Source of the DNA: Auricularia sp. M13 | Taxonomy: Eukaryota; Basidiomycota; Agaricomycetes; Auriculariales; Auriculariaceae | Direction of reading: 5' to 3' | Assembly: GCA_037042915.1 (NCBI GenBank) | Contig: CM073194.1 | Span: 682,001-746,000, forward strand | Length of the DNA: 64,000 nucleotides | In this document: positions 12,140 through 64,000 of the stretch, piece after piece | Numbering within the stretch: position 1 is the stretch's first letter | Layout of the letters: the number at the start of each line of letters is the position of its first letter | Notes under the pieces: generated by a model | Told to the model about the DNA's origin: nothing | The model's database searches: none | What the model saw: only the letters and a program-made list of their open reading frames with translations | Program-made: the position numbers and the translations under genes

Positions 12140-14280
12140 ATGCTTCTCCCCGTGCTCGCGACATTCGCAGGCGCCGCCGCAGCGGCGAATATCCAGCTTC
12201 CGGGCCTTACTCTCCCAGCGAGCGCGGCGGCTAATAAGGAGCTTGTGCACCAGACGTTCCTCAAGGGATACAACGCGTACCGCCAGTTCGCCTTTGGGCA
12301 GGACGACCTGACACCCAAGACGCCGGGCGCGACGAACCCCCGGAATGGCTGGGGTGCGACAATCTTCGATGCGATGCCAACCCTGAACATCATGGGCGAG
12401 ACGACACTGTACAACGAAGCGGTCACATTCGCCAGGCAGGTCGACTTTACGCGCTCCAAGACCACAGACACCGTTTCGTGCGTGATCGCGTTCATGCGCT
12501 CGTCCTGGTCTCTCACTTTGGCGTGGCTGGCAGTTTCTTTGAAACCACCATTCGGTAGGCTCGGGCTCATTTCTCTGTTCGAGCTGCTCCTTTATCAGCA
12601 CATTTAGGTATCTGGGAGGCATGCTAAGCGCCTACGAGCTGACAGGCCGGAATGACTCTGCATTACTGGCCAAGGCAACGCAGCTCGGCGACAAACTCTC
12701 CCTAGGTTGGGCAGGCCGCAAGGTGCCCGTGCAGTTCATCGACTTCAACACCAGCACGCCGCAGAACGTAGGAGGTCAGGTGAGGCTCTCCGTGCAAGCA
12801 AGGAGCGCGCATTCAACGCAGCATAGAATGATTTAGCCGCCGCGGCGTCCAACATCCTCGAATTCGCCAAGCTGACACAATATACGGGCAATCAGACCTA
12901 TTTGCAGCTGGCCGACATGACAATGCGCACCATCGCAAACAACGTGCGTCCGCGTCCCATGCCCCGCTGACTGTAACATGGCCGTCGCGGCCATGGGCAT
13001 CCGAATCCGAGCATGAAGCGCTCATGCAGTTCCCTCACCGCAGCCGAACCCAGTGTTCCCCGGCCTCCCGCCCGAGACCGTCAACGGCGATGGCACCGGT
13101 TCAGGGGATACTGTCGTGCGTCCAATTTCGCGGTACACGTTGACAGACTGGTAATCCAACGTTGATTGAATGGCAGACGTGGGACGGCGGCTACGACTCG
13201 TACCTCGAATACCTCCTCAAATACGGCCGTCTCACCAACTTCAACGACTCCCTCTGGACGAACACATGGCTCGCCGCCGTGCAGTCCAGCGTGACGAACC
13301 TGCTCAAGACCACGACGGCGCAGAACCGGACGTACCTCTCCAGCATCTCCGGCGGCATCCACGACTACGGGATGGGCGATCTGGCGTGCTTCGCGGGTGC
13401 GCGCCGCCCCTTTCTTTCCGTTGCCATACATCAGCAGAACGGAACACTGAATCTCTGAAATGTGTTGTCGATGTTTAGGCGGCAACTGGATCATGGGCGG
13501 CAAGCTGCTGAACCGCGACGACATCTTCCAGGCCGGGCTGCGCATCACGGACGGCTGCATCGCGACGTACTCCACGGGGTAAGCAAATTCTCAGACGCAC
13601 TCCGCACTCGCTCTGAGTCTCACCGTCCGACTCGGGGGCAGATCCGGCCTGGGTCCCGGCGGGTGGCAATACGCGCCGACGGACGCGGGCGCGTCCATCC
13701 CCGCGTCGCAGCAGACGTTCTACGCGCAACACGGATTCTACATCACGTGCGTCCCCTTGCTGCCCGGTGTTCCGCGTTCTGCGCCAGACTTAACGGTGTC
13801 TCTCTTACGAAGTGACGCGAGCTACGACGTGCGGCCGGAGGTCTTTGAGGTGATCGTTCCCCGGCTTTCTAACTTAGCTAGGGACGGGCGTCCCGGGAAC
13901 TGACGCGCCTTTCACCAGAGCGCATTCTACGCATGGCGCGCGACGGGCGACACGAAGTACCAGGACTTCGCGGCGTCGGGCATCCGCGCGATCAACAGCT
14001 TCCTCAACTCGACCGCGGGCTTCGCGCCGCTCAACGACGTGACGCAGAGCGTGTGGTCGCTCAACAACCAGGGGAACGACCTCGAGGTGCGTCTTCAAGT
14101 TAGTCTACTGAGAAATATTCATTATTCATACTGAATGAATGCCGCCCCTGTCCCTTGCAGTCGTTCTTCTTCGCGGAGGTGATGAAGTACCTCTACCTCA
14201 TGTTCGACGACCCGGCGCACATCAGCCTCGACCAGTGGGTCTTCAACACCGAGTCGCATCCGCTCCTGCCCAACCTGTGA
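12140..14280 (+). CDS. Secreted GH47 alpha-1,2-mannosidase (copy 1)
   Basis: Class I alpha-mannosidase (GH47), which removes alpha-1,2-linked mannose from N-glycans or fungal mannan. A cleavable signal ([15 protein letters not shown]) replaces the type-II membrane anchor of ER/Golgi members, so the enzyme is probably secreted. Family blocks in order: [32 protein letters not shown], then [43 protein letters not shown], then VRPEVFE and [11 protein letters not shown]. The end is [17 protein letters not shown] and the signature [12 protein letters not shown] with a stop at 14280. About nine introns are needed. A second, diverged copy lies at 32351-34680 on the minus strand. I first took this for GH76, but the RPE and NTESHP motifs are GH47. 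Confidence 0.87.
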
Positions 14281-32350: not shown

Positions 32351-34680
32351 CTACTCGTGGTCGTCGTCGTCGCACGGCTCGTCAGACGGCTGAGGCGCCG
32401 GCGCCGGATCCTCTGCGTCGTCGTCCTCACACGGATCCGCAGGGGCCGGCGCTGGCTCCGGCTTGTCGTCGTCCGCATCGCACGAATCGTCGTCGTCGGT
32501 GTCGGTGGGCACGGGGACGGCGGGATCGCTCGTGGCCGGCGTCGGCTCGGGCACGTCACCGTCCGAGTCGCACGGCTCGTCCTCGCCGTCGTCTTCATCG
32601 CCAGCGTCGTCCTCGCCGTCGTCGCAGCTTGGTCGCGGGTCAGCTCTGCGTCGAATGAATGACGGTGATGACGTCCTTACCTCTCGTCGTCGCCCTCGCT
32701 GTCTGTTGGTTGAGGGGCAGGCTCAGGCAGCGTGGTCGTCTGCGATGGGGGTTGCTCCGTCGACGTCGCGTTGGCAGGGAGGAATGGATGGCCTGCGGTG
32801 CATGAGCGACAGGATATTACAGGTTCGAAGGGCTCTGCACGTACTCTCCGTATTGAAGACCCACGTATCGAGGCTGATATGCTCCGGGTCGTCAAACATG
32901 AGGTACAAGTACTTCATGACCTCTGCGAAGAAGAACGACTGCGAATCGCCTAGTCAATGCGATGCGAACGTGCCAAAGCTGCGATACTCACCTCAAGGTC
33001 GTCACCCTGATTGTCCGTGGTGACCTCGTCGCGGCGCACGTCCTTGAGCGGCGCGTATCCCACGTTCGACTTCATGTACTTCTTCATCGCGCGGATGCCA
33101 TCGGCCGCAAAGTTGTAGTACTTCTCATCCCCAGTCGCGCGCCAGGCGTAAAAAGCGCTCTGTCGCAAACCGCACATCGATATATGAATCGAATCCGACA
33201 CTTCAGCTGGCTGGCTGCATACCTCAAAGACCTCGGGACGGACGTTATAGTCGGCGGAAGTGATCCAGAATCCGTGCTGGTCGAAGAAGTCCTTCTGGTC
33301 CGCCGGTGGGTCGTTTCCGCCGCCGTCGGCACCCTTGAACGCCCAGCCGCCGGGCCCGAGACCGGTGGGCGTCTGGTAAGTGCTCATACACGCGTCCGTG
33401 ACTTTGAGACCCCAGTTGACAAAGTCCTCGCGGTCCAGGAGGCGCCCGCCCATGATCCAGTTGCCGCCTACAATGCACCATCTCACTTCAGTTTTGCTCG
33501 GATTGAAAAATGGGAAGTATCGCGTACCCGCAAAGCATGCAAGGTCGCCCATGGAGTACGACGAGCCCTTGTCGGCATCGTAGGATGTGAGGAAGTACTG
33601 CCCGCCGGCCGACTGTTTGACTAGGTTCTTGATGGACGAGTCGACCGCGTCGGTCCAGGCTTCGGCCCACAGCGGGTCCTCGAAGTTCGTCAGACGCGCG
33701 TACTTGATGAGATACTCGAGGTACGAGTCGTATCCGCCGTCCCAGTTCTAATAATAGGAACAAAACAAACAAAACATCGTCAGCTAGGAGAAAAAGCGGT
33801 GTGCTGTGCAGAACGCACGACAGTCGACCCCGAGCCAGAGCCGTCCTTGTTAACCTGCAGCGGCGGCAGACCCGGGAAGACCGGGTTCGGGTTTGTAGCG
33901 ATGATGCGCATGGTCATGTCTGCCTTGTCGAGGTACGTCTGGTTGCCTGTGTACTGCGTGAGCTTGTAGAACTCCAAGATGTTGCTTGCCGCGGCGGCGA
34001 GGCCGTTTGGGCCGCCGTCGCCGACGTCGGGGGTGTTGTTAGAGAAGTCGATGGACCCGACGGGAGTCTTGTAGCCTGCTGGCCAGCCGTAGAGGAGCTT
34101 GTCGGCGAGCTTCTGCGCGTTCTGCAGGAGCGCGGCGTCGGACTGGCCGTTGAGATCGAAGGCGGTTAGCATGCCACCGAGGTAGCGAATGGTGCTCTCG
34201 AAGAAACTGATCATTTGGAGTGAGCAGGAGAATGATTTAAGACGGAGTATGCAGCGTACGAAACGTGATCGGGCGTGTTGGAATGCGAAAAGTCGACCTT
34301 GCTTGCGTACTCGACAGCCTCGCGGAAGAGATCCTGGAGTACACATGAATAAGAGCAGTCCGCAGAAAAAGAATAAGCCTCACGTCTTCACCCATAATCT
34401 TGAGTGTTCCAAGTGCGTCGAAGACGGAAGAGCCCCAGCCGTTGCGAGTGTCCTTGAACCCAGCGCTCACCGGCGCAAGGTCATCGTGGTTCCACGCGTG
34501 CTCCTTGTAGGCATTGTAAGCGTCCAGAAAGACCTCCTTGACGAGTTGCCGATTTTCAGATGCGCTGCTGGGCAGGGCCAGGCCGTCCTTCTGGATCTTG
34601 GCTGCTCCGACGAGAGAAACGCTAGCACCCGCGATCACCGCCGCAGGAAAGAGGACCGATCGAATACCGGTAGGGACCAT
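32351..34680 (-). CDS. Secreted GH47 alpha-1,2-mannosidase with acidic tail (copy 2)
   Basis: GH47 mannosidase. ATG at 34680; signal region [20 protein letters not shown]. Family blocks: [34 protein letters not shown], then [70 protein letters not shown] and the FNTES-HPF end. Unlike copy 1 (12140-14280), it continues past the catalytic domain into a Thr/Pro linker and a tail of about 100 residues rich in D, E and P. That tail contains repeated acidic Cys words ([34 protein letters not shown]). Stop at 32351. About nine introns. A DNA transposon sits 123 bp upstream of the start codon and may have replaced its promoter. Confidence 0.87.
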
Positions 34681-34802
34681 AGATATAATAAAGCAGGTAC
34701 AATCAGTGGAACGAGCAAGGCGGGCGTGAATGGAATGGAGAAAGGTGAACACGAAAGAAAGGGGAAAAACAAACAACGCAAGCGCTGGCGGGGTCGTCAA
34801 CC

Positions 34803-38048: not shown

Positions 38049-41000
38049 TTAGGTACTTGCAGGCGAAAGGGGAATTTCGGAGTCGTCACAATTCCGAGCT
38101 TCGTGAGCTTCCATCTCCTCGACGAGAGCCTTCAAGGTATCTCCAAGCTCTGCAACAGTAAGACCAGGCATATCAACGACAAAGACACGGTCGGAAAACT
38201 CGGCTGGCAGCATGCGCGAGTGTGGTACCAGCGCTACGAGTGCCTGAATAGCGGTGTACTCAACAACCCGCAGGCCAGCGTCTCCTTGATGCTTGCATGA
38301 CCACAGTGTCTCGTATGAGGCGGCCAAGAGCTCGGTGTCCGGTCTCGTGCATACGGAAACCATCGCGAGTGTCCGGATGTCGGGTAACTCGCCAGGGGCA
38401 GCGAGATTATACTGGAAGAAATAGCGCACTTCAGCATAATCCGTCTGTCCCTCAACAAACGATAGCTGAGAAAGAGTGAGATTATGCTTGAAGTGTGGGT
38501 TGTGCTCACCCTGATGTCACGTGCACGCCGAAGAGCGTCAGGTGCCTTGCAAAGCTCTTTCCATGCTGTTCTGACGACCTGGCCATTGGGAATCTGCAAC
38601 CTGGCCCACCTCTGAATCACAGGCACCCATCCAACATGAACGTGGACGCCATTGTCGACGAGAAACTGTCGAAGTGCTGCCTTTTCCCCAGCTAAGAGCT
38701 CCGAAAGGCTGGATTCCTTTGCGCGAAGCAGTATATAGCCGTCTCCGAGTTGCTTGCTGCCGCGGCGTGGCTTGCTGCGCTTCGCCGTCGGCGACGCAAT
38801 CTCCACCCCAGGAAGCATGACACGGACTGCATTAAGCTGTGCGCGCTCCAACCCACGTGCAGCAAGATTGGCATATGGGGACGAATCCTGTTTGAGATCG
38901 GCGGTGACGAGACCAATAAAACGCTCCATTGTCCACTGCGATACGCAAGCGCCTGGACCAACGCGAAGAATTTCGGGGACCATGTGCGACAGATTGTGCA
39001 CGATTGGTCGGATGAAGTGTAGGCGATCTGCGCGGCGTTGATAATAGAGCTCCTCGAACTCGCGACAGAACTCTAGGGAGAGCTTGTATTTCCCCATAAT
39101 GTGGTCGAAGGGAATGGCCTTCTGCTCGCAGAACCGGATGATCGCAACAAGTTTGCAGAACGAGCGCCAATACTTTGTCGGAAGCACACCAAGCAAGAGC
39201 CCTGGCCCCAGTCGCCACAAGTACAGGACAAATTCCCAGGCCTTGTACCCGCTGTTCAGCTTTTCCGCGATATTGCGAGGCGGTCTGCCAAACAGGCCTG
39301 GGAGGAAGCGAATACACCGGGCGACGTCCTCGCCGTGCAGCTTCCAGAGAGAAGAATCCATGAAGACAGCGAAGTCCCAGCTGGCACGCGAATCAGTCTC
39401 TTCGCAGTCGATCGTCCCACGCCAGAGTGAGATTAAAAGATCGCCCCAGTTGAGTGACGCGTGCATAATGTCCTGCGGGAACATGCAGGGTGGCCCAATG
39501 ACGGTATCCGGCGCCAGACCCATGAACGGACTGGTCCCGGTAATACCAGTTTCGCGACGGCGCTCCTTATACTGAGTCTTCGAAGGTGCACTTGTCACAA
39601 ATTGGACAGTTCGAGCGTATGCCGCCTTGTTTGGACTGCGGTACTGGGCCAGGTCAACGTCGCCGTGATCCGATCCTACGACAGAGTAGTTGAGCGGCTT
39701 CAAAGCAGCTGGGTAGTAATGTGGACAGTCCGGCTTGTGCCTGCCAGACATTCCGCACCAGAGACGGCAGCCGATCTTGCCATGGTGTGGAACGAGGCTG
39801 CTCCAGGCGGTCATTCCTGGCCCGTCGGCGAGACCATAAGCGATGAATAAGCGCGAGAGATAGGTGCGACAAAGATGCGCATCCCAGACAGGCAGTCCGC
39901 CAGCATTATTGACCGCAGAAATGATGTGGAGACCTGGGTGGAGAAAAGATTCAAAGATCTTTGGTTTATGCGGACCACCGATGAATCCGCCAGGAAGAAG
40001 ATAGCGCTGCTTGTAGCGGCGATCGGGTGCGTAGTTGACGACGATCCATCCGTACATCCAGCAATCGGAGGCCTTATTGCGATAGAGCTGAGCACCGTCA
40101 ATGGTCACCATGACCACAGTGTCCCCTACGCGGATGTGGCCACGCATGACAGCCTCGCGGATCTCCGAGCCGCACACAACGTCGTCGAACTGGAGCACAA
40201 AGCCGTGGGCCTTGATCTCCTCCTCAAGCTGCTCGAGCTTCCTCCATATATACTGGGCGTCGCGTGCGCTGTCAGGATTCCGGCGTAGAGCTTGGACCTG
40301 CTGAGGGAGCAGTATTGTATTGAACTGCTTAACAGGTTTGCGCTTGTCGTCGTAGCGAGCCTTTCCGCAAATGGGACAAGCTTCGAGACTGCTCCAAGGC
40401 CCAGTAAAGCCTGCACAGGAGTCGATGCACATATCGGACTTCACTGAGACAATGCCCGTGAGCCGCTCAAGACGGTGCGTCATCTGGGCGAGGGACAGGT
40501 AGCCAGAAGCGTCCGCAGGGTAAGCACGTCGCATATTCTCTATCTGTTCGGTGTACTGCCTGTAGGAGCCCGAGCTACAGGTCATATATGTGCGAAGGCA
40601 CAGCAGAAAGAGCCTGTCGTTGCTCTCGTCGAGGTCCAGAACTTCCTCGGAGGGGTGCAGAAGAGACTCGAGTTGTGCAGGGGTGAGATCACAATTGTCA
40701 TATGATGCGGACCGTAAGAGCTGATTAAATTGCTGGAGAACAGCAAGATCTGGCAAGTGAGAAAGGGGCAGGTCGGTGAAGTCGATTTCAGGCAGTACCG
40801 CGGGCTCCGAGTCGATGCGTTCCTGCTGGCGATCATGAACAGTACTGCCAAAGTCAGGAATCGCGTCGTCGTCCAAACCGTCAGAGTCGTTTTGACCCTC
40901 CGCAGGCGGAGAGATAGTCCTAGAGCGCGAAGGCGCGTCAACTTCGTCGACAGCATCGCGAGCAGGATCCCCTGAGTCGCTACGAGCACTCTGCATGCCA

Positions 41001-41323
41001 GCATCAGGCGGGGATGCAGCCTCCGGCGAAGATCCCTATAGTTAATATTGTAAGTTACTGGGGTTGCAGTGAGAATGGATGGGAAAGCCCACGTCTCGTA
41101 AAAATGTGGGCGGGACAGTCGGACGGCTTCCTCCCTCCGTTGGCTCTACACTGCGATATGGAGCGTGCGCGAGCCACGTTTGATGAGCCCGATCCCTGCC
41201 ACCCTTGCAGTACCGCCAGCATGTGCACCATTTTTTGGCCCGCTTTCTAGACGTTGTGCGAACGTCGCGCTCGTCGGCCCCTTCAGTCAAGCCGTGCTTG
41301 CGCTTCGTTCCAGTATCAGACAT
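38049..41323 (-). CDS. Tnp2-family transposase
   Basis: The ATG at 41323 begins a basic, Cys-containing N-terminus (MSDTGTKRKHGLTEGADE, then KKWCTCWRYCKGGRD), a possible zinc knuckle. One intron (acceptor near 41036) leads to a long exon with an acidic region and then the conserved core: DSCAGFTGPW, CPICGKARYD, DCWMYGWIVVNYAPDRRYKQ, LLPGGFIGGPHKPKIFESFL, PHHGKIGCRLWCGMSGRHKP and FPQDIMHASLNWGDLL. Near the end VSQWTMERFIGLV matches the usual C-terminal block. A last intron at about 38440-38510 precedes an exon ending SEIPLSPAST (stop 38049). The length of about 1,050 residues fits basidiomycete Tnp2-type transposases. No internal stops seen, so possibly active. Confidence 0.82.
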
Positions 41324-42999: not shown

Positions 43000-43008
43000 G
43001 TACCTGCT
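43000..43008 (+). repeat. Target duplication GTACCTGCT, left
   Basis: 9-bp word immediately outside the left inverted repeat. Its exact copy is at 55950-55958, after removal of a later MITE. Confidence 0.72.
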
Positions 43009-43260
43009 TAGGCTCGTCCCCAGCCGTTTTGGAAGTCCGCCTGAACGGATTCTCAAAACGGCTGGGCTCCAGTTCCGCTCTTTCAAGCGCCGCCATTTTT
43101 GATACCAAACGTGACTTTGGACTTAGCCAAATCGCGTTTGGCGACCCCACACCACTCATTTTCGGGTTTCTACAATTATAACTGAAAATGCGTTTTGGGC
43201 GATTTGGAATCGATTTAAAATATGTTGTATTTTGGTCTTAAATTAAATACAGAAAAATAC
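43009..43260 (+). repeat. Left terminal inverted repeat of helicase/DUF6589 element
   Basis: Pairs with 55160-55428 in inverted orientation. Shared words from outside in: TAG(G/A)CTCGT, CCAGTTCCG, CGTGACTTTGGACTT, ACCCC and AAATAC..AGAAAA. It contains a perfect 13-bp hairpin stem (CCCAGCCGTTTTG at 43019-43031 with its complement at 43054-43066). Confidence 0.75.
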
Positions 43261-43484
43261 TCTGCAGCCGTAAGGGTTGAGCTCATGTACCTTGGACCCC
43301 TTCGCAATGCTATGGAAAGAAAATTGCGAGTTCAACTTGACCTGCGGTGGTGGTATGAACGGCGACGGTCGTGCCCTTGCCAAATACAACTTCCGGGCAG
43401 CCATAAAGCCCGTATTCACGCTGCACACACATTTATGTTTCATTTACAATACATAAGAGCCTTTTACGCTGCAATGTAAGTGAA

Positions 43485-46400
43485 TCAAGCCTTCGGAGAA
43501 GTACTAGGAGCAGACGCGCTACTTTGTCCGAGTCCTTGCTGACCTCCTCCACCTGCTGACCCCCGTCCTCGGCCGCCGCCTCGACCCCTATTATCAGTGC
43601 TTCCTCCACCACGACCACGGCCTGCAGGGTCTTGTGCACCACCGCGGGTAGTTGGTGCAGCGCCTCGCCCAGACGGTGCCCGTATTGCAGATGCACCGCG
43701 ACCACGCACTATCGGTGTATTGAGCACGGCGGTCGACACCCACTCTCCTCGCTGCATCAGTCCATTGAAGAGCCAGACGAGCGGCTGCCCCGCTGCGCTG
43801 GTGTTATACCAGAGGCCACCCGGTCCAGCGAAGATCTCGCCGGGTCGGTGCTGTGGAGGCTGCTGCTGCACGTCATCATTGCCGCCACTCGCTGTTTCTG
43901 AGTTAGTAATAGAAATAAATTGGATGCCAATACTCACATGTAACGCTTCGAGCAGTATCTGCGGCCGATGCGGGCTGGGATTCGACGCGACGGCGCTTGT
44001 TGGGTCTTGTGACCGGTGCCGCGCGACTCGAGTCTTCGACGGCGGGCACGTCGTCTGTGCGGCGCGCTATGGATAAAGTGCCGCTCGTCGAGGCGCCAGG
44101 AGTCGCTGCAGACACAGTTGCTGCACCGCGGGCCCGAGGTGCTTGTCGTGCTGTCTTCGGCGCGGGTGTTGCGTCCTCGCGATCCGCACGTGCGTCGTAC
44201 GCGGCCGCCAGCTTGATATACAGCTTCTTGCCATAGTCAGACCACCACTGCCATTCCTCCTCGATGAGCCCCTTGAGCTCGCGCTCCGAGTTGATGACTG
44301 GAACGAGGGCGATTTCAAGGGGACCCAGCCGGCAAAATCCGGAGCATCAGGTTAGGATGGATGGGTCGGCCGACCTTCCGCTACGGAGGTTCGGGACCCC
44401 GGCCAATTTGGCTCCGGAGAGTGCAAAATGAGCCCATTTGAACTTGAGATTGACTGATAAAATGAGTTTTGAAGCATTTGAAGTAGTTTTAGGCCTTGTG
44501 AGCCCCCCTGAACGACTACAAGGGTACCGATCCGGCAGGCTTCGGATGCATATTGTTCGCTGACATAATACATCAACGTTCCGAGATCGGACCCTTGGGC
44601 AACCTGCTGCATGCACACGTAGTCTGGGACCCCATGTGGCTGATTAAATATATTTTTCGGAGCAAAAAGCTGTCATATACCAAAAAACTTGGTGAGCAGC
44701 GCCATTCCGGAAGCAAACCGGAGGTATATCCGCGGAAATAGGATGGATGGGTCGGGCCTCGGTGGCTTACAGCGGTTACCGACCCGGTGCCGTTCAATTT
44801 GCTTCCGGTGTCCCCTTGGGCGATTTTGTCAATAAGCACGTCGCCAAGTATACCATTTGAAGCAAAGAAGCTGCCTTCGAAGTCGCGCCGGTAGACTTCA
44901 TCTCTCCACTCTCGACATACGCGGACGATGTCCGCGGCAGGCGTTCGCTTCTCGGCTGCCTTAGGCTTCTTGCGCGCCCCAGGCCCTGGAAGCGTGCGCT
45001 GCAGAAGTGCGGGATGGCAGAGGTCGCAGCAGGGCACGCCAGTAGCTGCTCCGAATGAGCTCAGGAACGCCAAGTGCAGGAAGTACTCACCAGAACTGAT
45101 GTCGTCGCATGCAAAGGCGCGGCCAAGGACGCGCCGCCGGCAGTCACCCGTCTGCACGAGCGCAAGCAGACCTTCGTCCGGAGATTCCTCACTGGGGTCG
45201 AGCTTGATGTTGCCGTCGATTGAGTTGTTTCCTGACGCCATAGCTCCTCGGTTGCGACCATGAGCGGCGGCCCAGCCCTTTGCGGGCCGCTTCGGCTTGC
45301 CGCCCTTCTTCCCTGTGCCAGTGCTAGTGCCACCCTCACCGACTGCGCCGTCGGGATAGACCCCATACGCGGTGGGTTCGGCCAGGAGAACCGCAAGTCC
45401 TTTCATGCCTGGACGACGAGCGGCTCGGCCAGCACGTTGGACGAATGTCGATAGCTTATCCGTCAGACCCCATTGCACAACAACTTCGATATTTGGGAGG
45501 TTGCAGCCCTAAAACATAGTGAGATATGTGGCATAGAGTGCAATGCAGTGCATACCATGCCCGCGGCGTCCGTGCATACCAGGATGCGGATGGATCCACG
45601 CCGGTAGTGGTCCATTGCATTCTTGCGGTATTCATGCGAGTGTGTCGCGTTGAATGGCCTGAGAAGACCTTCATCGCGTAGGTCGACAGGCAGAAGGCCG
45701 ACAAGGTGATCTATTATGAGGTCGTCAAGCGTTGTGTCGTCGGCGTAGATGAACGTCATCGGGATGTCGGTCGCTACACGGACGTTCTTGGGGATGACAA
45801 AGTCAAGGTCGGCCAGGGTCGTCTGCGGCCGATGCATTGCGCGTACAACGAGCGAGACGTTTGGCCTATTATTGCCCATATCTAGGTTAATATAGTTGTC
45901 GCCAAAATGGAGCTTGCTCAAGACGTCTCGGCGAACGCGTGGTGTGAACGTAGCAGACAGTGCGACAACGGAGGTATCCTTCGGGAAAAAGGCTCGCACC
46001 GTACCCAGCGTGCCGTATTTCTTGCGGAACTGAGCGCCCCAGTGCGAGACGCAGTGGGCTTCGTCCACGACCATCGAAAGAACACGTCGTGTGAACTTTG
46101 TGTTCCGTAATACACCGTTGACGAACTGTCGCGACTGCAGCATCTCGGGGGAGATCAGGATGACTGTATAATCACCGTCACAGATATCCTGGGGTTGTGA
46201 GACAGATGGAAACCGTATGTTCTGTTAGGCAGCTGCTCACCGCCATTAATTCTGTTAGTGGTTTTTCTCGTGCCGAATTGACAGCAATGGCGCGCAATTT
46301 GTACTCGTCATGCAGATTCCCCACCATTTCCTCTTGCAGGGCAATGATAGGTGAAACGAAGATCGTACAGCGGTTCGCATTTTGCGCAAATGCATACGGA

Positions 46401-46669
46401 GCGGCGACGACGGCTGTCTTGCCCATCCCTGTGCCCGCATGCACAATGACATCTCGACCACGACACTGTGCGCGACCAGCCTCCATCTGGAAGCTTCGCG
46501 GCTCCTTGTCCGTCCAGCCGAAAGCAGTCTGCATGCGGGAGCCTATTTCGTCGAGTTCTGCGTCGGATACCGCCCACTGTGTGCTCGATTGTCGTTCGGG
46601 TGACTCAGGTGATCGCGTGCGCTTCCGCTTCTGGTTGGCAGCATGAGCACGGGCATTGCGCGGAAGCAT
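43485..46669 (-). CDS. RecQ-like DNA helicase of the element (interrupted)
   Basis: Superfamily-2 helicase with RecQ-type motifs: motif I VIVHAGTGMGKTAVVA, motif Ia FVSPIIALQEEM, DEAH box VVDEAHCVSHWGAQF, motif III ALSATFTP, motif V VCTDAAGMGCNLPN and motif VI FVQRAGRAARRPG. Behind the core is a Cys pair region (GVPCCDLCHPALL), perhaps a zinc site as in RecQ proteins. The C-terminus is basic and ends in an RGG-like tail (GRGRGGGSTDNRGRGGGRG). The ATG is at 46669; introns near 46186-46245 and 45508-45556. A 503-bp MITE (44316-44818) interrupts the frame after VLIDKIA, and coding resumes at LVPVINSERELKG, so this copy is probably inactive. Such helicases are multicopy in basidiomycetes beside DUF6589 genes. 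Confidence 0.85.
44308..44315 (+). repeat. Target duplication GGCGATTT, left (MITE 1)
   Basis: 8-bp direct repeat, exact copy at 44819-44826. Confidence 0.85.
44316..44818. mobile_element. hAT-like MITE 1 inside helicase gene
   Basis: A 503-bp insert without coding capacity. The ends are inverted: CAAGGGGACCCAGCCGGCAA at left and, reverse-complemented, CAAGGGGACACCGGAAGCAA at right. A perfect 8-bp duplication (GGCGATTT) flanks it, the size made by hAT transposases. Near each end a direct word AGGATGGATGGGTCGG recurs (about 44354 and 44742). Removing the insert and one duplication restores the helicase frame exactly. Confidence 0.87.
44819..44826 (+). repeat. Target duplication GGCGATTT, right (MITE 1)
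   Basis: Exact copy of 44308-44315, next to the MITE end CCCCTTG. Confidence 0.85.
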
Positions 46670-46701
46670 GGTGACGGTACAGGAGAACGAGCTAGCATTT
46701 G
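46670..46701. promoter_or_regulatory. Very short divergent promoter, helicase / DUF6589
   Basis: Only 32 bp separate the ATG of the helicase (minus, 46669) and the first ATG of the DUF6589 frame (plus, 46702). If the second Met (46741, MDVALDGADLS) is used the gap is 71 bp. Core promoters must lie in the coding regions or be shared. No TATA box is seen. Confidence 0.55.
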
Positions 46702-49700
46702 ATGCCGCCTTCTCCTGTTCACCTTCGCACTCTGCGAGGCATGGACGTAGCTCTCGACGGCGCAGACCTCTCCTCAGACTCCGGCTTCGACTCCACAGAC
46801 AACGGTGAGGAAGAGCTCTGGTTCAGCGACAACGAGCTGGACCATCACGATGGCGAGTCACTGTCCGCGATATCGTGGCCCACAACACCAACGGCGGCAC
46901 ATACTGGGCCAGTTACTAGTGCAGAGGAAGCCAGCATGCCAGCCACACCTGCACAACCCCGTACCGTCGACAATCTGTCTTCCCCGCCCGCACCAGGTCG
47001 TCCAAGAGCGTCAGCCTTGCCGCCTTCCTCGCCGCCAGCGAGAGATATCATGGACATCCCAACTAGCGATATAACCGAGACGAAGTTCTCCTCTCCCGTC
47101 CGAGGAACGCGCGACCAGCGTACTGCCATCAACCGCGGCAAGGGTCTAAAGAAGCGTCGTGTGACGATGGAGCACAAAGCAAAGACCAGTGCTGCCGCAC
47201 AGGCTGCATTTGCGCAGCGGCTGGAGGATCGCCGCGCAGAAGAGAAGGAATATCGGCAGGAAATATGCTGGCGGGCGCTGGCGCTGTTGACGGAGAACGG
47301 GATCGGTCTGGGCGAGTTCCTGCTATTTGTGCTGGATCCAGAGAACAAGGCGAACGACCTCGCACTTGTGCGATGGAAAGGGCTCTTGCAAAATCGCACC
47401 TTCGTGGAGCAGATCTTGTCCTTCTGGTCGACCAACTCCAGCACACCTCCAGTTGTTCGACGCCGTGTTTCGAAGTGGATGGTCGACTATGTCGCCTCAC
47501 TTGCTGGACGTGAGGCGCGGCTCATCACCAAGCGCGGATGGCTCCGCACGAGCCCACAGGACATGACCACCGAGGCTATCCTCACCTTCAGCTTGGATGC
47601 TATCTGCCAGAAGTTGGACGCAAACGCACCGGCCGCGATGGGCGTCATGCGTCAGTTTGCGACGTCGTCGAAGCAAATCACGAACGGTTCCAGCAAATTA
47701 ATGCTGCGCAAGGATACAGTGAGATAGTTCGGGTGTTGGGAATGCATATGACTCACTTAATATACAGGTACTTGCTCAGGCGGCTTCGACGCTCCTTCGA
47801 GAGCACAGTCGCGGCAATAATCTAGTAGCGAATCAAGTCGGGCTCTACCTCTACGTCAGTGGTGCACAGCGGCAGACCATCAGTGTAATATCGCACCTTG
47901 GTCCAAGTTGCAGTTACAAAACTCTGGTCGGTGAAGGAAAGTCGAGCACGAAGCGGCTGGAGGCACCACCGTTGCCAAGCACTCAGGCCAGTTCATTACC
48001 AATCGACCAGCCCGTTGTCGCGCAGCCGCCCAGCCCTCTCCCGCGGGGAATACTCCCCGTCCTTTCGCAGACATGCATGGAAGAGGCGCGGCGAGTAGCT
48101 GAGGAAGATAGTGTGACGACCTACGACAATCTCAACCTCGTATTCAAGGCAGCAGAACAGATCATGGGTCGAAAGGGTGCGACAACTCACAGACGGCTTC
48201 CAAACGCTGACAGAATGTAGATTCCCAGGAGAATGGGACATGTTGCACTGTGACTCCTTTTCACGGCAATGTCGGCAACGCACTGGACTTCGACGCCGCC
48301 GAAGCGCAGTTCCATGCTGCGGGACCCCTGCGGCCTATGGATATCGTCCTGAAGCCGGCTGACCGCAAGCTGTGGCGCGAGCTGAATACGGAGAGCATCT
48401 TGTGGATCATCGTCAGATACGGGAAGGGGTTATTCGAGAAATTCAGCACACACCTCGAGTCCTGGGCTCCTCACGATCCGCAGGAAATCGCCGTCCACCG
48501 CACGCCGATACACCCAATTCAGACGATGCATATTGATGAGTCGTCCATCAAAGGAAACGTCGAGGTCATCGATGCCATTCACAAGCAGCTGAACGTGGAC
48601 ACCGAGTCTGCGAAGTTCATGAAGCGGGTGCGGCTCTTCTTCGGCGACCAGCTCACACTGGCTCGCATTCGCGCTGTCACTGCGGCGCGCACGGGACATG
48701 AGCCTCTGGCGCAAGGTTGGCGGTGGGCAAAGCCAGTGCAAGGCCTGTTCCATGTTGAGATGACCGCGACACACAACACGCTTGTAACTCACTGGGGAAA
48801 GCCCAACGCGGGCGCGCGCAATCCGGGGTCGCTCTGGTTCCACAACACCGTCCTTGACAGGAAGCCCATCGTCGTGACGTCTTTGCCGCCCTTTCGAGCC
48901 TGCAGGGACATCATTAATGTTTCGCTGTACGCTCGTGTGCTTGCGTGCCTCTTACTCGTCACCGGACAACCCGACCTCGAGTCTTGCGCAAAATCTGTTA
49001 CGTGGACTCAGCTCAAGAACGCCGCAGAGAAGATCTACGATACGTACGCTTCGACAGCCGTTGTATACGACATGCGTCAAGCGCGGGCCGCCGATCCAAA
49101 TGGCGCGACAGGCGATGTCGTCTACGAGAATGGCCTTCTGTTCCTGCGCGACGCACTCGCCCTTCGTACTTTCAGCCGCCTGGTCAAAGCTGGCCGCTCT
49201 GGGCACCTCGTCCTTACCATAAAAGTCTTGCTGCTCAGCTTCAAGGGCGGCGGGCACCCCAAGTACGCTTTGGAGATGCTGCATCTCCTCCATAACATCT
49301 TGCATGTCTGGCCGAAGCCGCTCAGGTGCGTTGCATCGCAGCACGTGCAGAATGGACTTACCGAATACGGCCCAGGAACCTCGTCTTGAACAACTGGCTG
49401 GTTAACCCCACTGGCACCAAGGATGGATTCGTGTCGCTGGACCTGATGCAAGAACACCTAAACTTCTGGATCAAGGTCAGTATTACGCGACTGCAGCGGA
49501 ATAATTGCTGACTAGAGCAGCGCGTTTACCACGCACATGGAAGCAATGCATCATGGGAATGGTTGGCCATGATTGTTAGGAAAGCGGAAAAGAACGGATG
49601 GCCATTACCGAGACCAGACGGACATACAGGTAAGGAGCGAGGATTACCGGGACTGATTACTACGGAAATAGGCTTTTCTACTAACACTCCCCCTCAGGCC

Positions 49701-52700
49701 GGCAATCCGAGCACAGCTGCAAAGCGAGACGTCTTGACGGGATCGAGTGCCTTGGTGAAGATATCAGCAACGTTGCTGTGTGTATCAATCCAATGAACAG
49801 AGATAATTCCATGTGCGACGGCGTGTCGAACATGGTGATACGGGAGCGCGATGTGTTTCGTGCGATCGTGGAACTTGTTCGACTTCGCCATCGAGATCGC
49901 GGACTGATTGTCGACCAGCATTGTCGTCGGGAGGTCCATCGGCTCGAGCAGCTCGCTGATCAGTGAGCGTATCCAAATGACCTCGCGAGTCGCGAGCGAG
50001 AGAGCAATATACTCAGCTTCTGCCGAGGAGAGCGCAATAACGCTCTGCTTCTTCGCTCGCCAGGAGATAGCTCCGCCGAAGAGCGTGAACGCATACCCAG
50101 ACATGGAATACCAGTCGAGGGACTCCGTGCCATAGCTCGCATCGCTGTATCCGCAAAGACCGTCGTCAGTGCCGCCGAGAGTGAGTGTGTAGTGGCGTGT
50201 GCCAGCGAGGTAGCGGACAACGTGTTTGAGCGCCTCCCAGTGCGCGCGTCCGGGATTGGCCTGGAATTGCGAAAGGAGGCTAGCCGCGAATTGGATATCG
50301 CTGCGGTAGCTGTTGGCGATCCAAAGAACCTGTCCCAGCACCTCGCGGAACGGAACTCGGGCCATATCAGCCTTGTCGGCGTCGGTTGTCGGGCACTGGT
50401 GACGACCGAGACGGATCCCAGGGTTCAGTGCGGAATCAGCGGGTCGAGCGTCCTCCAGACCGCAGAGCTGGATAACATCCGCAATGTAGCTCGGCTGTGA
50501 GAGCGAGATGGTGCGCGCAGCACGGTCGCGAGTGATGGTGGTACCCAGGAAGTGCGAGATGTCCCCGAGGATCTTCATCGGGAACTGCGCATTCAGATCC
50601 TTCTCGAGCGCTAGGAGCAGCTCGAGGTTGTTGCCGACCAGCATGGGATCATCCACATGCAGGCCGAGGTACGTGCGCTCGGCATCCGAGACACGGTAGA
50701 AGACCGCATGGTCTGCAGCGCTGCGCTGGAAACCAATGCTGTAGAGGTACGTACTCAGCGTCTTGTACCAGATAAAGCCGGCGTCCTTGAGACCATAGAG
50801 CGCTTTTTCGAGACGGATGATGTGCGAGTGGCGTGGCATGTCGTCCGAGTCGAAGCCTTGCGGCTGTTCCGCATAAACGGGGTTCTCAAGTACGCCATTG
50901 AGATAAGCACCACGGAAGTCGGCTTGCCGAACTTCCCAGTCGAAGTGCGCTGCCATGGAAAGCAGTATGTTGCGCGACGTGGTCTTGAGGACGGGTGCAT
51001 ACGTCTCTCCGTATCCACCCACTCGCTCCTGGACATCACCGCGCGCGACGATGCGTGCCTTGCGCTGGATGACATTCCCGGAGCTGTCGGTCTTGTTGTC
51101 GAATACCCATTTGAGCGGGATAATAGGCGCGTCGCCTGCAGCCTCGCGGGGTACAACGACGTAGGTTTTGTGATTGAGCAAAGACTCGATCTCTTCTTCC
51201 ATCGCGCTCTTCCATTCGGGCCATATAGCACTGCGTTCGGCCTGGAATACTGTGCGCGGAATAAGTGTAGACGGGAGGACAGCGAGCGCAAACCCTGCTT
51301 GCCCCTCTGTTGTCTCCAACGGGACCTGCAGACCCGGCGTGAACTTCGGGTCGCGGTTCTTGTACTGTGATGTCGTCCCAGCGCCAGACTGGATGGCGCG
51401 TACGTATGCGCTCGGCTTGCGCACGCGGGCGGGACGTCCAGATTTCGCGTCCACATCGGGGTCGGTCGGCGCGATGTCCGCAGCGGTGAACTTCTGCGAG
51501 TCGTCCGCAGTCGTTCCGGACACCTTCTCCCCCTCGACGCGGCGGGCATCGTGCTGTACAGTAGTTGGCGGTGTATCTTCCGCCCGCGGCAGAGCTATGG
51601 GCTCCGCGTTCTCCCCCTCTTCCTGGGGAAACTGGGTACCATCGCTGAAGCGCACGTTGCGCTCAACGGTAACGGTACGGGTTGACGGCCAATAAATCTT
51701 GTGGCCGTCCTCGGTCTCGACGCTAGGGCCGATCCAAATCGCCTCTTCGCCTCGAGGCTCGAGCTTGGTGCCGTTCATTACACGAACAAACACCTTGCAC
51801 CCAAACTGGCGGGCACGGCGGAGGTCGGGCTTGTTGCCCGTTGCAACCTCAATCGGTGACTTGGGCGTCGTCTTCTTCGTCGGCGTCCGGTTGCGAAGCC
51901 AGAACGCATATAGCACGGCCTGTCCCCAGAACGATTCCGGCAGTCCAGAGTCGTCCAGCATGGCGCGCGTCAGCCCGAGGATCGTCCCATTCAGGCGTTC
52001 AGCTGCACCATTATGTTGCGGGGTATCGTGCGCAGTCAACGACCTGCGCGTGCCGCTCTTCGAGAGATGCTCGTCGAAGATCTCGTTGACGAACTCGCCG
52101 CCGCGGTCTGTGTGAAGTTCCTTCACCACCGCGTCGTACTGTGTCTTGATATCAGCCTCGACATGCTGATAATTGGCGAACGTCTCGTCCGCCTTCTTCG
52201 TGCGCTGGAGCCCGACCCATGCCAGGTCGGTGTGACTGTCCAGCCAAAGCGAGTAGTAGCGGTACCCGCCGCGCGCCTCCGTCGGCGCAGGACCCCATAT
52301 GTCCGCAGAAATGCGGTCACCCAGTGCGCGACCATGTGGTTCGAGCCGCTCCTTCGCGATGGGCTTGTTGCGCATCTTTGCGCGCACGCAATGCTCGCAC
52401 TCCGAGATGGGCGTCGTTAGATCGACCTCGAAGTTGAGCGCGCTGTTATTCTTCACGATGGCCTCCACCGTCGCGTGCGACAAGTGTCCGAGGCGTACAT
52501 GCGCTTCCATGCGCGTAATCGGCTTGTGCGCGGCTGCCGCTGCACTAGCACTCGCCCCACGACCGGGCTTCCTCCAGGTCATGATGGGGTAGACGTCTTG
52601 CTGCTGCTTGACACGCAGGATGGGACGTTCTTGCGGGTCACGAGAGTCGTAAAGCACTCCGTAACCGTCTTCGCGATTGGTGAATACGAGTCCTTGGCGG

Positions 52701-54863
52701 CGGAGCAGTCCAATCGATATGAGCGGCGTTGTGCAGCTCGGAAGATAGTAGACATTTCGCAGGACGAAGGACTTGACCTCGTCGCCCTGGTGGCACGAGA
52801 ATTCGACTGTGCCTTTCTGCGTCGCGATCTCGATACCCGACGCCGTCGTAATCTCGTACGGTGTGCACGGACCAATGTCGGTGAAGTTGTCGAGGTTGCC
52901 ATCGTAGTGACGCGATGCTCCGGTGTCCAGGAGCCGTGTGATGAGCTGGCGGCCGTTCGAGACAAGAGCGTGTCCCACGGCGCCGTGCGCGAGAAAACTG
53001 AACGACTCTTCTTCGCCGTTCGGACTGTCGCGCTTCTCTGTGGTTTCAGCGACGCGCGCAGAGCCCTTGCCCTTCGCGCTCGCGCCTGGCTTCGACGATT
53101 TGCCCTCGCCGTCGCCCTTTCGCGCGCGGTAGCCGTACTCGTGGCCGGGGGGACCCTGGCCTTCGGCGCCACCGCCGGGAGCCCAGCAGTCCTTCGCAGC
53201 GTGCTTGGGACTGTTGCAGACGCTGCACTTCGCGCCGTTTCCACCGCTCGAGCCGCTCCTCGGCGCCGTCGCCGGGGGTTGAGTCTTGCGGTACTTCGCC
53301 GCCATGGCGCGCGCTTCCTCGCGCTCGCGGCGGGCCTGCGACTGGTCGAGGCGAATAGCCTCTCGCAGCGCGGTGTGCACCGTGTCGAAGTCGAGCTTGC
53401 CGCCCGAGGCCGTAATCGCGGTGTGAATGACGGGCCGATACTGCTTCGGCATGGCCTTGATGAGGAACGCGGCGTATATCGCGTCCGTAAGGTCGCCGCC
53501 GGCCTCAATATACTCGTTGCGCTTCTCCACGAGCGCCTGGATGACGGCGAGCGGATCCTCGTCCTCGTCACCCGTACAGCGGATCTCCATAAGCTGAATG
53601 AGCAGGTCCGCGAGCACCAAGATACTCTGGTTGGCGAATTTCGCCGTAAGCTGTCGCCAGAGCTCATAAACAGGCCGGACACCGATAAGCTGTTGGTGTA
53701 AGTCGGCCGGGATGGACTGATTTATCGACGAGATGAGCTGCGCCTCGATGCGCAGGTATTCGTCCATTTTCGTTTCGTACGCGTCGAGCGCGGCTTCGTA
53801 CGCGGCCAGCGCGGTCTGCTCGGTCTCTGTAGGACTTTTCGGGTTCTTGACAGTTGGCATGATGGGCTCAACGGGCGTTTTCACGCGTCCAGTGAGGTGT
53901 TTACGCGCGCCCGGCAGTGCCAACAGAAACTGCTCCATACGGTCCTTGTACGCGACCCAGTTGATGCCGCCTGCCTGTAGCTTCGGCAGGGAATGTGCGC
54001 CATAACGCGTACCCGCGGAGAGGTCTGTCGCCATACCGGCGGGGCTCAGGAACCTGTTAGGAAAGCGGAAAAGAACGGATGGCCATTACCGAGACCAGAC
54101 GGACATACAGGTAAGGAGCGAGGATTACCGGGACTGATTACTACGGAAATAGGCTTTTCTACTAACAATGATTTCGCCCTGTATCGACCTTCTACGAAAG
54201 CTGGCGAACCACATGCACACGACGCTCGGCGCATACCAGGGCAAGAAGCACTGCCCAGCCGATTTATCGCGCGACATCGACGTGCTCATGGCGAGCTTAG
54301 CAGAGCACAAGGTCTACATAAAGCAGCCCAGCCGCCGTACGGACTCGGACGATGCGCCTGCGGTCGACGTTATGAGTCACGGGCTGGAAGCTCTGACAAA
54401 TGGCCCCAAAAACCCACTGAGCGAGTTCAACAGATCCTTTGCAGCGCTGCAACGCCGCAGCAAGGTTAAGCCGCTGCTGCCATTTGTTGTTGCCGTACAA
54501 GAGGAGGCGCAGGACGCGGCGGGTTCCACTGGTCGCGCCTCACAGGCAGACGGCGGTACGGCGGACCGCGCGAGCTCGGACGACGATGGAGAACGCGCAG
54601 CGTGCGGTCAAGGAGCAGTGGATGCGTCAGCACAAGATGCGGGCGCAGACGCGGGCGCAGAAGGCGAGGTCGGCGGAGCGGATGGTGACGAAGAAGGCAG
54701 TGAGCCCGAAGACAATCCGGGCGAGCATCCCGACGACAACGACGAGCATCCAGACCTCCTGTTCACATACGACGATGAAGGCGATGTTGACCTCGACCCG
54801 GACAACGTGTACCAGTCAGAGAGCGATAGCGGAGACGATTTAGACGGGGAGGAAGCTGATTGA
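46702..54863 (+). CDS. DUF6589 protein (interrupted by copia element)
   Basis: Large protein of a basidiomycete-expanded family. N-terminus: acidic Ser/Asp-rich region, Pro-rich linker, a basic patch (NRGKGLKKRRVTME) and a helical domain (ICWRALALLTENGIGLGEFL). Middle: SGAQRQTISVISHLG, YDNLNLVFKAAEQIMGRKG, then the DUF6589 core with HPIQTMHIDESSIKGNVEVI, LFFGDQLTLARIRAV, GWRWAKPVQGLFHVEMTATH, GARNPGSLWFHNTVLDRKPI and YENGLLFLRDALALRTFSRL. Next WPKPLR, NWLVNPTGTKDGF and GSNASWEWLAMI, where the copia element (49574-54167) sits. Family sequence resumes with SPCIDLLRKLANHMHTTLG and runs to an acidic tail ending DDLDGEEAD (stop 54863). Conserved acidic residues in DESS, GDQL and HVEM could form a nuclease-like site; I suggest a transposase, unproven. 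Confidence 0.82.
49569..49573 (+). repeat. Target duplication ATGAT, left (copia)
   Basis: 5-bp direct repeat next to the LTR start TGTTAG; exact copy at 54168-54172. Confidence 0.85.
49574..49686 (-). repeat. 3' LTR of copia element
   Basis: 113 bp, TGTTAG...CTAACA on the plus strand; identical to 54055-54167. Unusually short for a copia LTR. Confidence 0.9.
49694..54034 (-). CDS. Copia gag-pol polyprotein
   Basis: One frame of 1,446 residues in the copia domain order. Gag-like N-terminus (MATDLSAGTRYGAHSLPKL) with the UBN2-type middle, then a CCHC zinc knuckle (CSVCNSPKHAAKDC, near residue 270). An aspartic protease follows (LLDTGASRHYDG), then the integrase HHCC region (VRLGHLSH ... CEHCVRAKMRN) and DDE core (AWVGLQRTK, HTDRGGEFVNEIF, NGAAERLNGTI). 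Reverse transcriptase comes next (WVFDNKTDSSGNVIQRKARI, active site YLGLHVDDPMLVG), then RNase H (GYSDASYG, SSAEAEYIALS) ending DIFTKALDPVKTSRF. The order protease-integrase-RT-RNase H defines copia. The frame appears whole. The first ATG is about 20 bp inside the 5' LTR, so the leader is very short. Confidence 0.93.
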   Translation of the reverse strand: MATDLSAGTRYGAHSLPKLQAGGINWVAYKDRMEQFLLALPGARKHLTGRVKTPVEPIMPTVKNPKSPTETEQTALAAYEAALDAYETKMDEYLRIEAQLISSINQSIPADLHQQLIGVRPVYELWRQLTAKFANQSILVLADLLIQLMEIRCTGDEDEDPLAVIQALVEKRNEYIEAGGDLTDAIYAAFLIKAMPKQYRPVIHTAITASGGKLDFDTVHTALREAIRLDQSQARREREEARAMAAKYRKTQPPATAPRSGSSGGNGAKCSVCNSPKHAAKDCWAPGGGAEGQGPPGHEYGYRARKGDGEGKSSKPGASAKGKGSARVAETTEKRDSPNGEEESFSFLAHGAVGHALVSNGRQLITRLLDTGASRHYDGNLDNFTDIGPCTPYEITTASGIEIATQKGTVEFSCHQGDEVKSFVLRNVYYLPSCTTPLISIGLLRRQGLVFTNREDGYGVLYDSRDPQERPILRVKQQQDVYPIMTWRKPGRGASASAAAAAHKPITRMEAHVRLGHLSHATVEAIVKNNSALNFEVDLTTPISECEHCVRAKMRNKPIAKERLEPHGRALGDRISADIWGPAPTEARGGYRYYSLWLDSHTDLAWVGLQRTKKADETFANYQHVEADIKTQYDAVVKELHTDRGGEFVNEIFDEHLSKSGTRRSLTAHDTPQHNGAAERLNGTILGLTRAMLDDSGLPESFWGQAVLYAFWLRNRTPTKKTTPKSPIEVATGNKPDLRRARQFGCKVFVRVMNGTKLEPRGEEAIWIGPSVETEDGHKIYWPSTRTVTVERNVRFSDGTQFPQEEGENAEPIALPRAEDTPPTTVQHDARRVEGEKVSGTTADDSQKFTAADIAPTDPDVDAKSGRPARVRKPSAYVRAIQSGAGTTSQYKNRDPKFTPGLQVPLETTEGQAGFALAVLPSTLIPRTVFQAERSAIWPEWKSAMEEEIESLLNHKTYVVVPREAAGDAPIIPLKWVFDNKTDSSGNVIQRKARIVARGDVQERVGGYGETYAPVLKTTSRNILLSMAAHFDWEVRQADFRGAYLNGVLENPVYAEQPQGFDSDDMPRHSHIIRLEKALYGLKDAGFIWYKTLSTYLYSIGFQRSAADHAVFYRVSDAERTYLGLHVDDPMLVGNNLELLLALEKDLNAQFPMKILGDISHFLGTTITRDRAARTISLSQPSYIADVIQLCGLEDARPADSALNPGIRLGRHQCPTTDADKADMARVPFREVLGQVLWIANSYRSDIQFAASLLSQFQANPGRAHWEALKHVVRYLAGTRHYTLTLGGTDDGLCGYSDASYGTESLDWYSMSGYAFTLFGGAISWRAKKQSVIALSSAEAEYIALSLATREVIWIRSLISELLEPMDLPTTMLVDNQSAISMAKSNKFHDRTKHIALPYHHVRHAVAHGIISVHWIDTHSNVADIFTKALDPVKTSRFAAVLGLPA
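54055..54167 (-). repeat. 5' LTR of copia element
   Basis: 113 bp, identical to the other LTR; would carry the element's promoter. Confidence 0.9.
54168..54172 (+). repeat. Target duplication ATGAT, right (copia)
   Basis: Exact copy of 49569-49573. Confidence 0.85.
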
Positions 54864-55159
54864 CGCCGCTGTGACATGTACGATAGCCGCTGGTGCCAGA
54901 GATGCATTAAACACTGTGCAAAGCCAAGTTCATAGCTTGCATTCGATGCCACAAGAAAAAGACGGCCGTTATGAAAGTAGAAAGTCATGAATTCACTGCA
55001 TGAAGTGCAGGCAAAGTTGAACGGTGGATTCCGACTCCGGCGTCCGATGTGCACGACCGCCGACGCGTTTGTGGTTTGCACACTGCGACTGTACTCATTC
55101 CAACATTACTGGGAAATAATTAAATGACTCCAAAGTGCACTCCAAGTGGAACTGGGGGG
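54864..55159. other. 3' flank of DUF6589 gene
   Basis: About 300 bp between the DUF6589 stop and the right inverted repeat; presumably 3' UTR. No other feature seen. Confidence 0.45.
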
Positions 55160-55428
55160 TTCCCTATTTTCTGTGTATTTACATGGTGCTTCAAAATAAA
55201 TGTATCTCAAATGCCTTCAAACCGTTCAAAAGTCATTTTTGACTATGTACCTGGGGAGGTGAAAGTTGAGTGTGGAGGGGTCGACGCGTTGCGGCCAAGT
55301 CCAAAGTCACGCTCAGTATCTAAAAGTGTGACGCGCCATGTGACGGAACTGGCTCCCAGTCGCTTCGCCAAGGCTCAGCGCAGCGATTCAGACTCCGCCG
55401 GCGAACGCCGACTTAGGTTACGAGTCTA
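55160..55428 (-). repeat. Right terminal inverted repeat of helicase/DUF6589 element
   Basis: Inverted partner of 43009-43260, with the same order and spacing of conserved words. It also holds an imperfect hairpin (GTCGCTTCGCC at 55359-55369 against GGCGAACGCCGAC at 55400-55412) at the position of the left repeat's hairpin. Confidence 0.72.
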
Positions 55429-55433
55429 GTACC
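55426..55433 (+). repeat. Target duplication CTAGTACC, left (MITE 2)
   Basis: 8-bp direct repeat; exact copy at 55947-55954. It overlaps the last 3 bp of the big element and the first 5 bp of its target duplication. Confidence 0.85.
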
Positions 55434-55946
55434 CAGTGTTGGTTGTAAGCCTTATGACTTAACTTCACTTAAGGTTAATAACCCCTTAAATTTAAGGCTT
55501 ACATTCGGTCCTGGGGGATCATAAGCCTTATGGTTACAATGATCCAGGCAGTTAATGGCTGCTTGGAAGGATTCAGCCCTTGCTAAGCTTGATCTGAGCC
55601 CCTGTTGCAACTCTGAGACAATAATATTTCACTCTTAGTACCCCAACAGTCAGCTCAAAGTAGGGAAAACCTTGCTAAGAAACTCTCTCAGTGGCATCAC
55701 AGCAGATTTTTAATCATTGTATAGGACAGAGATTGGTCCCGGTAGCTGTCCTGACCAGCAACCCGAAGATCTGAGTCTGTTCAGAGCTGGTTCAGAACAA
55801 TAACATGATGTGGCCAATACTCAAAGATGATTTTGGACTAATTCTGATATTTAAGGCTTCAAGTTAAGCCTTATGTTAAGGTTAATAACCCCATTAAGGC
55901 TTACAATCACTCCCAAGGGTTATTAACCCCTTACAAACCAACACTG
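55434..55946. mobile_element. hAT-like MITE 2 at element border
   Basis: A 513-bp non-coding insert with ends CAGTGTTGGTTGTAAGCC (left) and, reverse-complemented, CAGTGTTGGTTTGTAAGG (right). Flanked by a perfect 8-bp duplication CTAGTACC. Internally it repeats the palindromic word GGTTAATAACCC and AAGGCTTAC several times near both ends. Size, ends and duplication fit a hAT-derived MITE. Confidence 0.88.
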
Positions 55947-55954
55947 CTAGTACC
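55947..55954 (+). repeat. Target duplication CTAGTACC, right (MITE 2)
   Basis: Exact copy of 55426-55433. Confidence 0.85.
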
Positions 55955-55958
55955 TGCT
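55950..55958 (+). repeat. Target duplication GTACCTGCT, right (helicase/DUF6589 element)
   Basis: Exact copy of 43000-43008. It survives intact on the far side of MITE 2, which duplicated its first five bases. Confidence 0.72.

Positions 55959-58350: not shown

Positions 58351-64000
<5,650 letters not shown>

Follow-up and report, generated by a model that had tools for sequence, protein, structure and literature searches.

A RecQ-like helicase gene and a gene encoding a DUF6589 protein lie head-to-head in a 64,000-nucleotide stretch of the genome of Auricularia sp. M13 (GCA_037042915.1, contig CM073194.1, positions 682,001 to 746,000 of the forward strand; this whole stretch is hereafter the window, numbered from its first base). 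The locus raises the question of whether this pair belongs to a mobile element and, if so, of which kind. The pair was found to lie within a DNA transposon of ~12.4 kb that spans positions 43009-55428, is bounded by long inverted repeats and a 9-bp target site duplication, and carries the RecQ-like helicase inside, as the initial annotation of the window had proposed for a helicase-bearing DNA transposon. We consider it quite likely that this is an AcademH-type DNA transposon, in which DUF6589 would most likely be the DDD/E transposase and the RecQ-like helicase would most likely open or remodel DNA.

Inverted ends and the target site duplication

The element begins with TAGGCTCGT at its left terminus and, read on the minus strand, with TAGACTCGT at its right terminus. 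The left terminal inverted repeat (43009-43234, plus strand) and the right one (55192-55428, minus strand) are ~230 bp long; their alignment begins at base 1 of both ends, covers bases 1-226 of the left and 1-237 of the right end, and matches in 160 of the 210 aligned columns, gaps aside. When the terminal 250 bp on the left (from 43009 inward) were aligned with those on the right (from 55428 inward, reverse strand), the score was 120. As controls, each end was aligned to 497 half-overlapping windows of 250 bp on both strands (994 alignments per end), which yielded maximum scores of 42 for the left and 59 for the right end, while first-order Markov resamples (n = 2000) reached at most 53. Ends of 420 bp scored 133, whereas none of 2000 mononucleotide shuffles exceeded 68. 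The word CGTGACTTTGGACTT, already pointed out as conserved on both sides when the locus was first annotated, is present in one copy on each strand of the window, in mirrored places (43110 and 55297). The 8-base word TAGRCTCG is also found at 12556, 59150 and 63054, and the 9-base word is restricted to the two ends. A smaller, hairpin-like inverted repeat lies inside the left terminal inverted repeat (43019-43066); apart from this hairpin and from each other, neither end has a convincing second match in the window, and a tblastn search of the window for a second copy of the proteins (to E 1e-3) returned only the proteins themselves.

On the left, the target site duplication GTACCTGCT (43000-43008) adjoins the terminus from outside. 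On the right, a 513-bp miniature inverted-repeat transposable element (MITE) at 55434-55946 has been inserted into the duplication and separates its first five bases, GTACC (55429-55433), from the last four, TGCT (55955-55958). The MITE has the ends CAGTGTTGG/CCAACACTG and is flanked by an exact 8-bp duplication of its own, CTAGTACC, at 55426-55433 and 55947-55954; from its ends and the length of its duplication we take it to be hAT-like. The right site was rebuilt by a script that collapsed the MITE together with one of the two 8-bp repeats flanking it. After the collapse the right end of the element reads CGAGTCTA followed by GTACCTGCT, and the left end reads GTACCTGCT followed by TAGGCTCG; the match is exactly 9 bp, neither 8 nor 10, and adjoins both inverted termini. 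A boundary corrected from the MITE's own duplication thus exposes the matching terminal bases, which is independent support for the transposon proposal. The exact 9-bp flanking duplication of the initial annotation was therefore retained, whereas its right boundary was displaced: the right 9-mer had been placed at 55950, 521 bp too far out, and the true end of the element is at 55428 owing to the MITE insertion. Since GTACCTGCT is found once more in the window, at 34692 on the minus strand, the 9-mer as a word is no proof, and the evidence resides in its abutment to both inverted ends. A coincidence, in which two host genes happen to be enclosed by inverted repeats, could draw on the fact that a single locus was examined; however, an end score of 120 against maxima of 42 and 59 in 994 controls each, together with a duplication that exactly abuts both ends, makes this reading hardly credible.

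The divergent gene pair and the later insertions

The RecQ-like superfamily 2 helicase gene (43485-46669, minus strand) was recognized by its Pfam, NCBIfam and PDB matches and by its motifs. Its start codon is at 46669 and is separated by a gap of 32 bp (46670-46701) from the start of the DUF6589 gene at 46702 on the plus strand. Two introns (46240-46189 and 45555-45509) connect the helicase frames; the exons are traced down to ~44573, ahead of the C-terminal ones, and the lower boundary of the gene marks how far its open frames extend rather than a stop codon. The frames contain a Walker A motif (GTGMGKT, 46435), DEAH (46065), SAT (45957) and the motif VI sequence QRAGRAAR (45439). The helicase frames were searched singly, which weakened each score. 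The Pfam DEAD family (PF00270) was matched above cutoff (5.2e-10 and 8.6e-8) and Helicase_C below cutoff (2.7e-4 and 0.024), and the NCBIfam model recQ_fam matched the middle frame with an E value of 8e-25 and 87.5 bits, below its curated cutoff of 219.8. In the PDB, 36 distinct sequences were matched at E ≤1e-3 (best E 3.2e-14), and all of these are named RecQ, BLM, WRN, RECQ1, RECQ5 or plainly ATP-dependent DNA helicases. A RecQ helicase core is also present in the subtelomeric RecQ helicases of fungi, e.g. in Agaricus bisporus var. burnettii, which are described at chromosome ends (PMC7473861), whereas the gene studied here belongs to an element bounded by inverted ends and a duplication.

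The DUF6589 gene consists of a 5' part (46702-49573, plus strand) and a 3' part (54168-54863, plus strand) that encodes an acidic tail and ends with the stop codon at 54861-54863. Its reading frame is broken in this copy by the insertion of a copia-type long terminal repeat (LTR) retrotransposon, which the initial annotation did not mention; the first five bases of the 3' part are the repeat of the copia duplication. Four introns were placed (47719-47767, 48177-48220, 49326-49375 and 49476-49520), the listed ones being our choice where several splice options kept the frame open. PF20231 (DUF6589) matches 48211-49389 with an E value of 1.7e-94, and positions 378-410 of the same family match within 54153-54863 (E 8.9e-5, which taken alone falls short of the curated cutoff); the exon frame 47723-48220 has no Pfam match. 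Weak Pfam matches of the flanking DUF6589 exons to SYNE1 (0.087) and Herpes_capsid (0.26) were judged to be chance, as were the two Golgi PR-1-like proteins (E 0.033 and 0.23) returned by a phmmer search of the 392-amino acid DUF6589 frame against the PDB. An AlphaFold2 model of this frame from the single sequence had a mean predicted local distance difference test score (pLDDT) of 34.2 and a predicted template modelling score (pTM) of 0.23, too low for the model to be of use.

Besides the helicase and the nested copia protein, no large conserved protein other than DUF6589 was found in the element, which makes it the likely transposase, catalysis included. Candidate catalytic acidic motifs, picked by eye, are HIDES (48529), GDQLT (48643) and KYALE (49261). 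Relatives of both proteins were looked for in collections of viral, prokaryotic and plasmid records, which are uninformative on the spread in fungi. The DUF6589 frame 48211-49389 had 15 pattern matches in viral contigs and 49 in genome contigs, none of which was confirmed, and no match among plasmids; DUF6589 exon 2 had 12 in viral contigs, again with none confirmed, and the helicase frame 45463-46224 had no pattern match in viral contigs.

The copia element occupies 49574-54167 (minus strand), with LTRs at 49574-49686 and 54055-54167 and a 5-bp duplication, ATGAT. It holds a single uninterrupted open frame of 1463 amino acids with the domains RVT_2 (2.4e-50) and copia gag (3.9e-8), both above cutoff, and rve (0.0015), below cutoff. 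Its two 113-bp LTRs are identical, which suggests that the insertion is probably recent, 113 bp being a coarse clock. The order of events is that the helicase-bearing transposon was there first, and the MITE, into its duplication, and the copia element, into its gene, came afterwards. The MITE carries internal short repeats, e.g. TTAAGGTTAATAACCCC.

Relation to AcademH and to other helicase-bearing transposons

Terminal inverted repeats are among the characters of AcademH transposons, and the present element has them, with 160 of 210 columns matching. AcademH was described by Kojima 2020 (Mob DNA 11:15), as cited in later papers. According to these papers, AcademH elements encode a helicase and generate duplications of 9 or 10 bp, AcademX elements those of 3 or 4 bp, and this difference in length seems to be tied to the encoded helicase or nuclease (PMC10045372); AcademH elements are low-copy and occur in Basidiomycota, Ascomycota and Mucoromycota (PMC10799480). 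Among fungal Academ copies, 1,568 of 1,938 (81%) have recognizable protein domains, e.g. PF00270 and recQ_fam (CDD:129701), and owing to their helicase domains fungal Academs are often annotated as host genes (PMC6416283). The element of Auricularia sp. M13 agrees with this description in being a helicase-bearing DNA transposon of a basidiomycete, with a duplication of exactly 9 bp at both ends and with a helicase that matches both named domains, PF00270 above cutoff and recQ_fam below its curated cutoff. It differs by the copia insertion that breaks up the present copy. AcademX was rejected, as a duplication of 3 or 4 bp would be expected and one of 9 bp was found. The statement of the initial annotation that no described transposon superfamily fits such an element therefore falls, on the published features of AcademH listed above. 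We regard the element as a probable further member of AcademH, an assignment made by the reported duplication length, helicase, inverted ends and host range.

The nearest described alternative is KolobokH, the fungal Kolobok transposons with a RecQ helicase (PMC9587614); in the same source one rhodophyte Kolobok has its RecQ on the complementary strand, as in the present element. Kolobok elements are reported to have TTAA 4-bp duplications and 5'-RR termini (3-5 bp duplications in KolobokP). The 9-bp GTACCTGCT and the TA terminus of our element are neither TTAA nor RR, and a KolobokH origin is accordingly extremely unlikely.

Long inverted repeats and duplications of about 9 bp are also features of Mutator-like elements (MULEs). 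In this respect the present element does look MULE-like, and the helicase and DUF6589 genes could then be passengers of such an element. However, a scan of 10 of the element's open frames (not every frame) returned no MULE domain at E values up to 1, which agrees with the initial annotation, where no MULE transposase motif had been recognized; a Mutator-like element is therefore very improbable.

Several observations weigh against the AcademH assignment. Neither Pfam (E up to 1) nor NCBIfam (E up to 0.1) links DUF6589 to a transposase family, and the agreement with AcademH is one of duplication, helicase, inverted ends and host rather than of the transposase. The N-terminal helicase frame alone has its best PDB matches in SKI2W/Superkiller 2 (9.3e-7), and among NCBIfam models the ligase-associated DEXH helicase scores best on it, with recQ_fam third (2.1e-4). 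The element is present in a single copy in the window, and its ends and duplication are thus known from one locus. DUF6589 could instead be the transposase of a separate, undescribed superfamily, unrelated to Academ, in which the pairing with a RecQ-like helicase and the 9-bp stagger arose convergently. The failure of DUF6589 to match any named transposase family favours this, as does the literature searched, which omits most subscription papers and the original AcademH paper: the term DUF6589 is not mentioned in it. The identifier PF20231 appears in that literature solely in an unrelated optics paper. On the other hand, the length of the duplication, the family of the helicase and the fungal host all agree with what is reported for AcademH and fungal Academ, and we consider a separate superfamily unlikely, though less so than the Mutator-like or KolobokH alternatives.

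A 9-bp duplication together with inverted ends implies a DDD/E-type strand transfer in the AcademH-type element proposed here. The DUF6589 protein would bind the long inverted ends and, cutting with a stagger of 9 bp, join them to the target. The helicase, which is read divergently from a start region with 32 bp between the two start codons, would most likely open or remodel the DNA of the element or of its target in the course of transposition or repair.

Neighbouring features and significance

Outside the element, an open frame of 933 amino acids (38234-41035, minus strand) by eye resembles large transposases of Agaricomycete genomes, but searches of Pfam (E 0.01) and NCBIfam (E 0.1) assigned it to no family. 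A gene fragment of Glycosyl hydrolase family 47 (32950-33747, E 1.5e-29) is probably an ordinary host gene, and the start of an ATP-binding cassette (ABC) transporter nucleotide-binding domain is found at 61791-62525 (E 7.6e-7).

The type of element to which this locus probably belongs is already known, and a claim to a new superfamily falls with it. What is useful beyond this is the link of DUF6589, listed in Pfam as a family of unknown function, to a helicase-bearing transposon with defined ends; this link is possibly new, and we do not claim it as unpublished. If it is general, fungal DUF6589 genes and the RecQ-like genes adjacent to them could be re-annotated as transposon genes.

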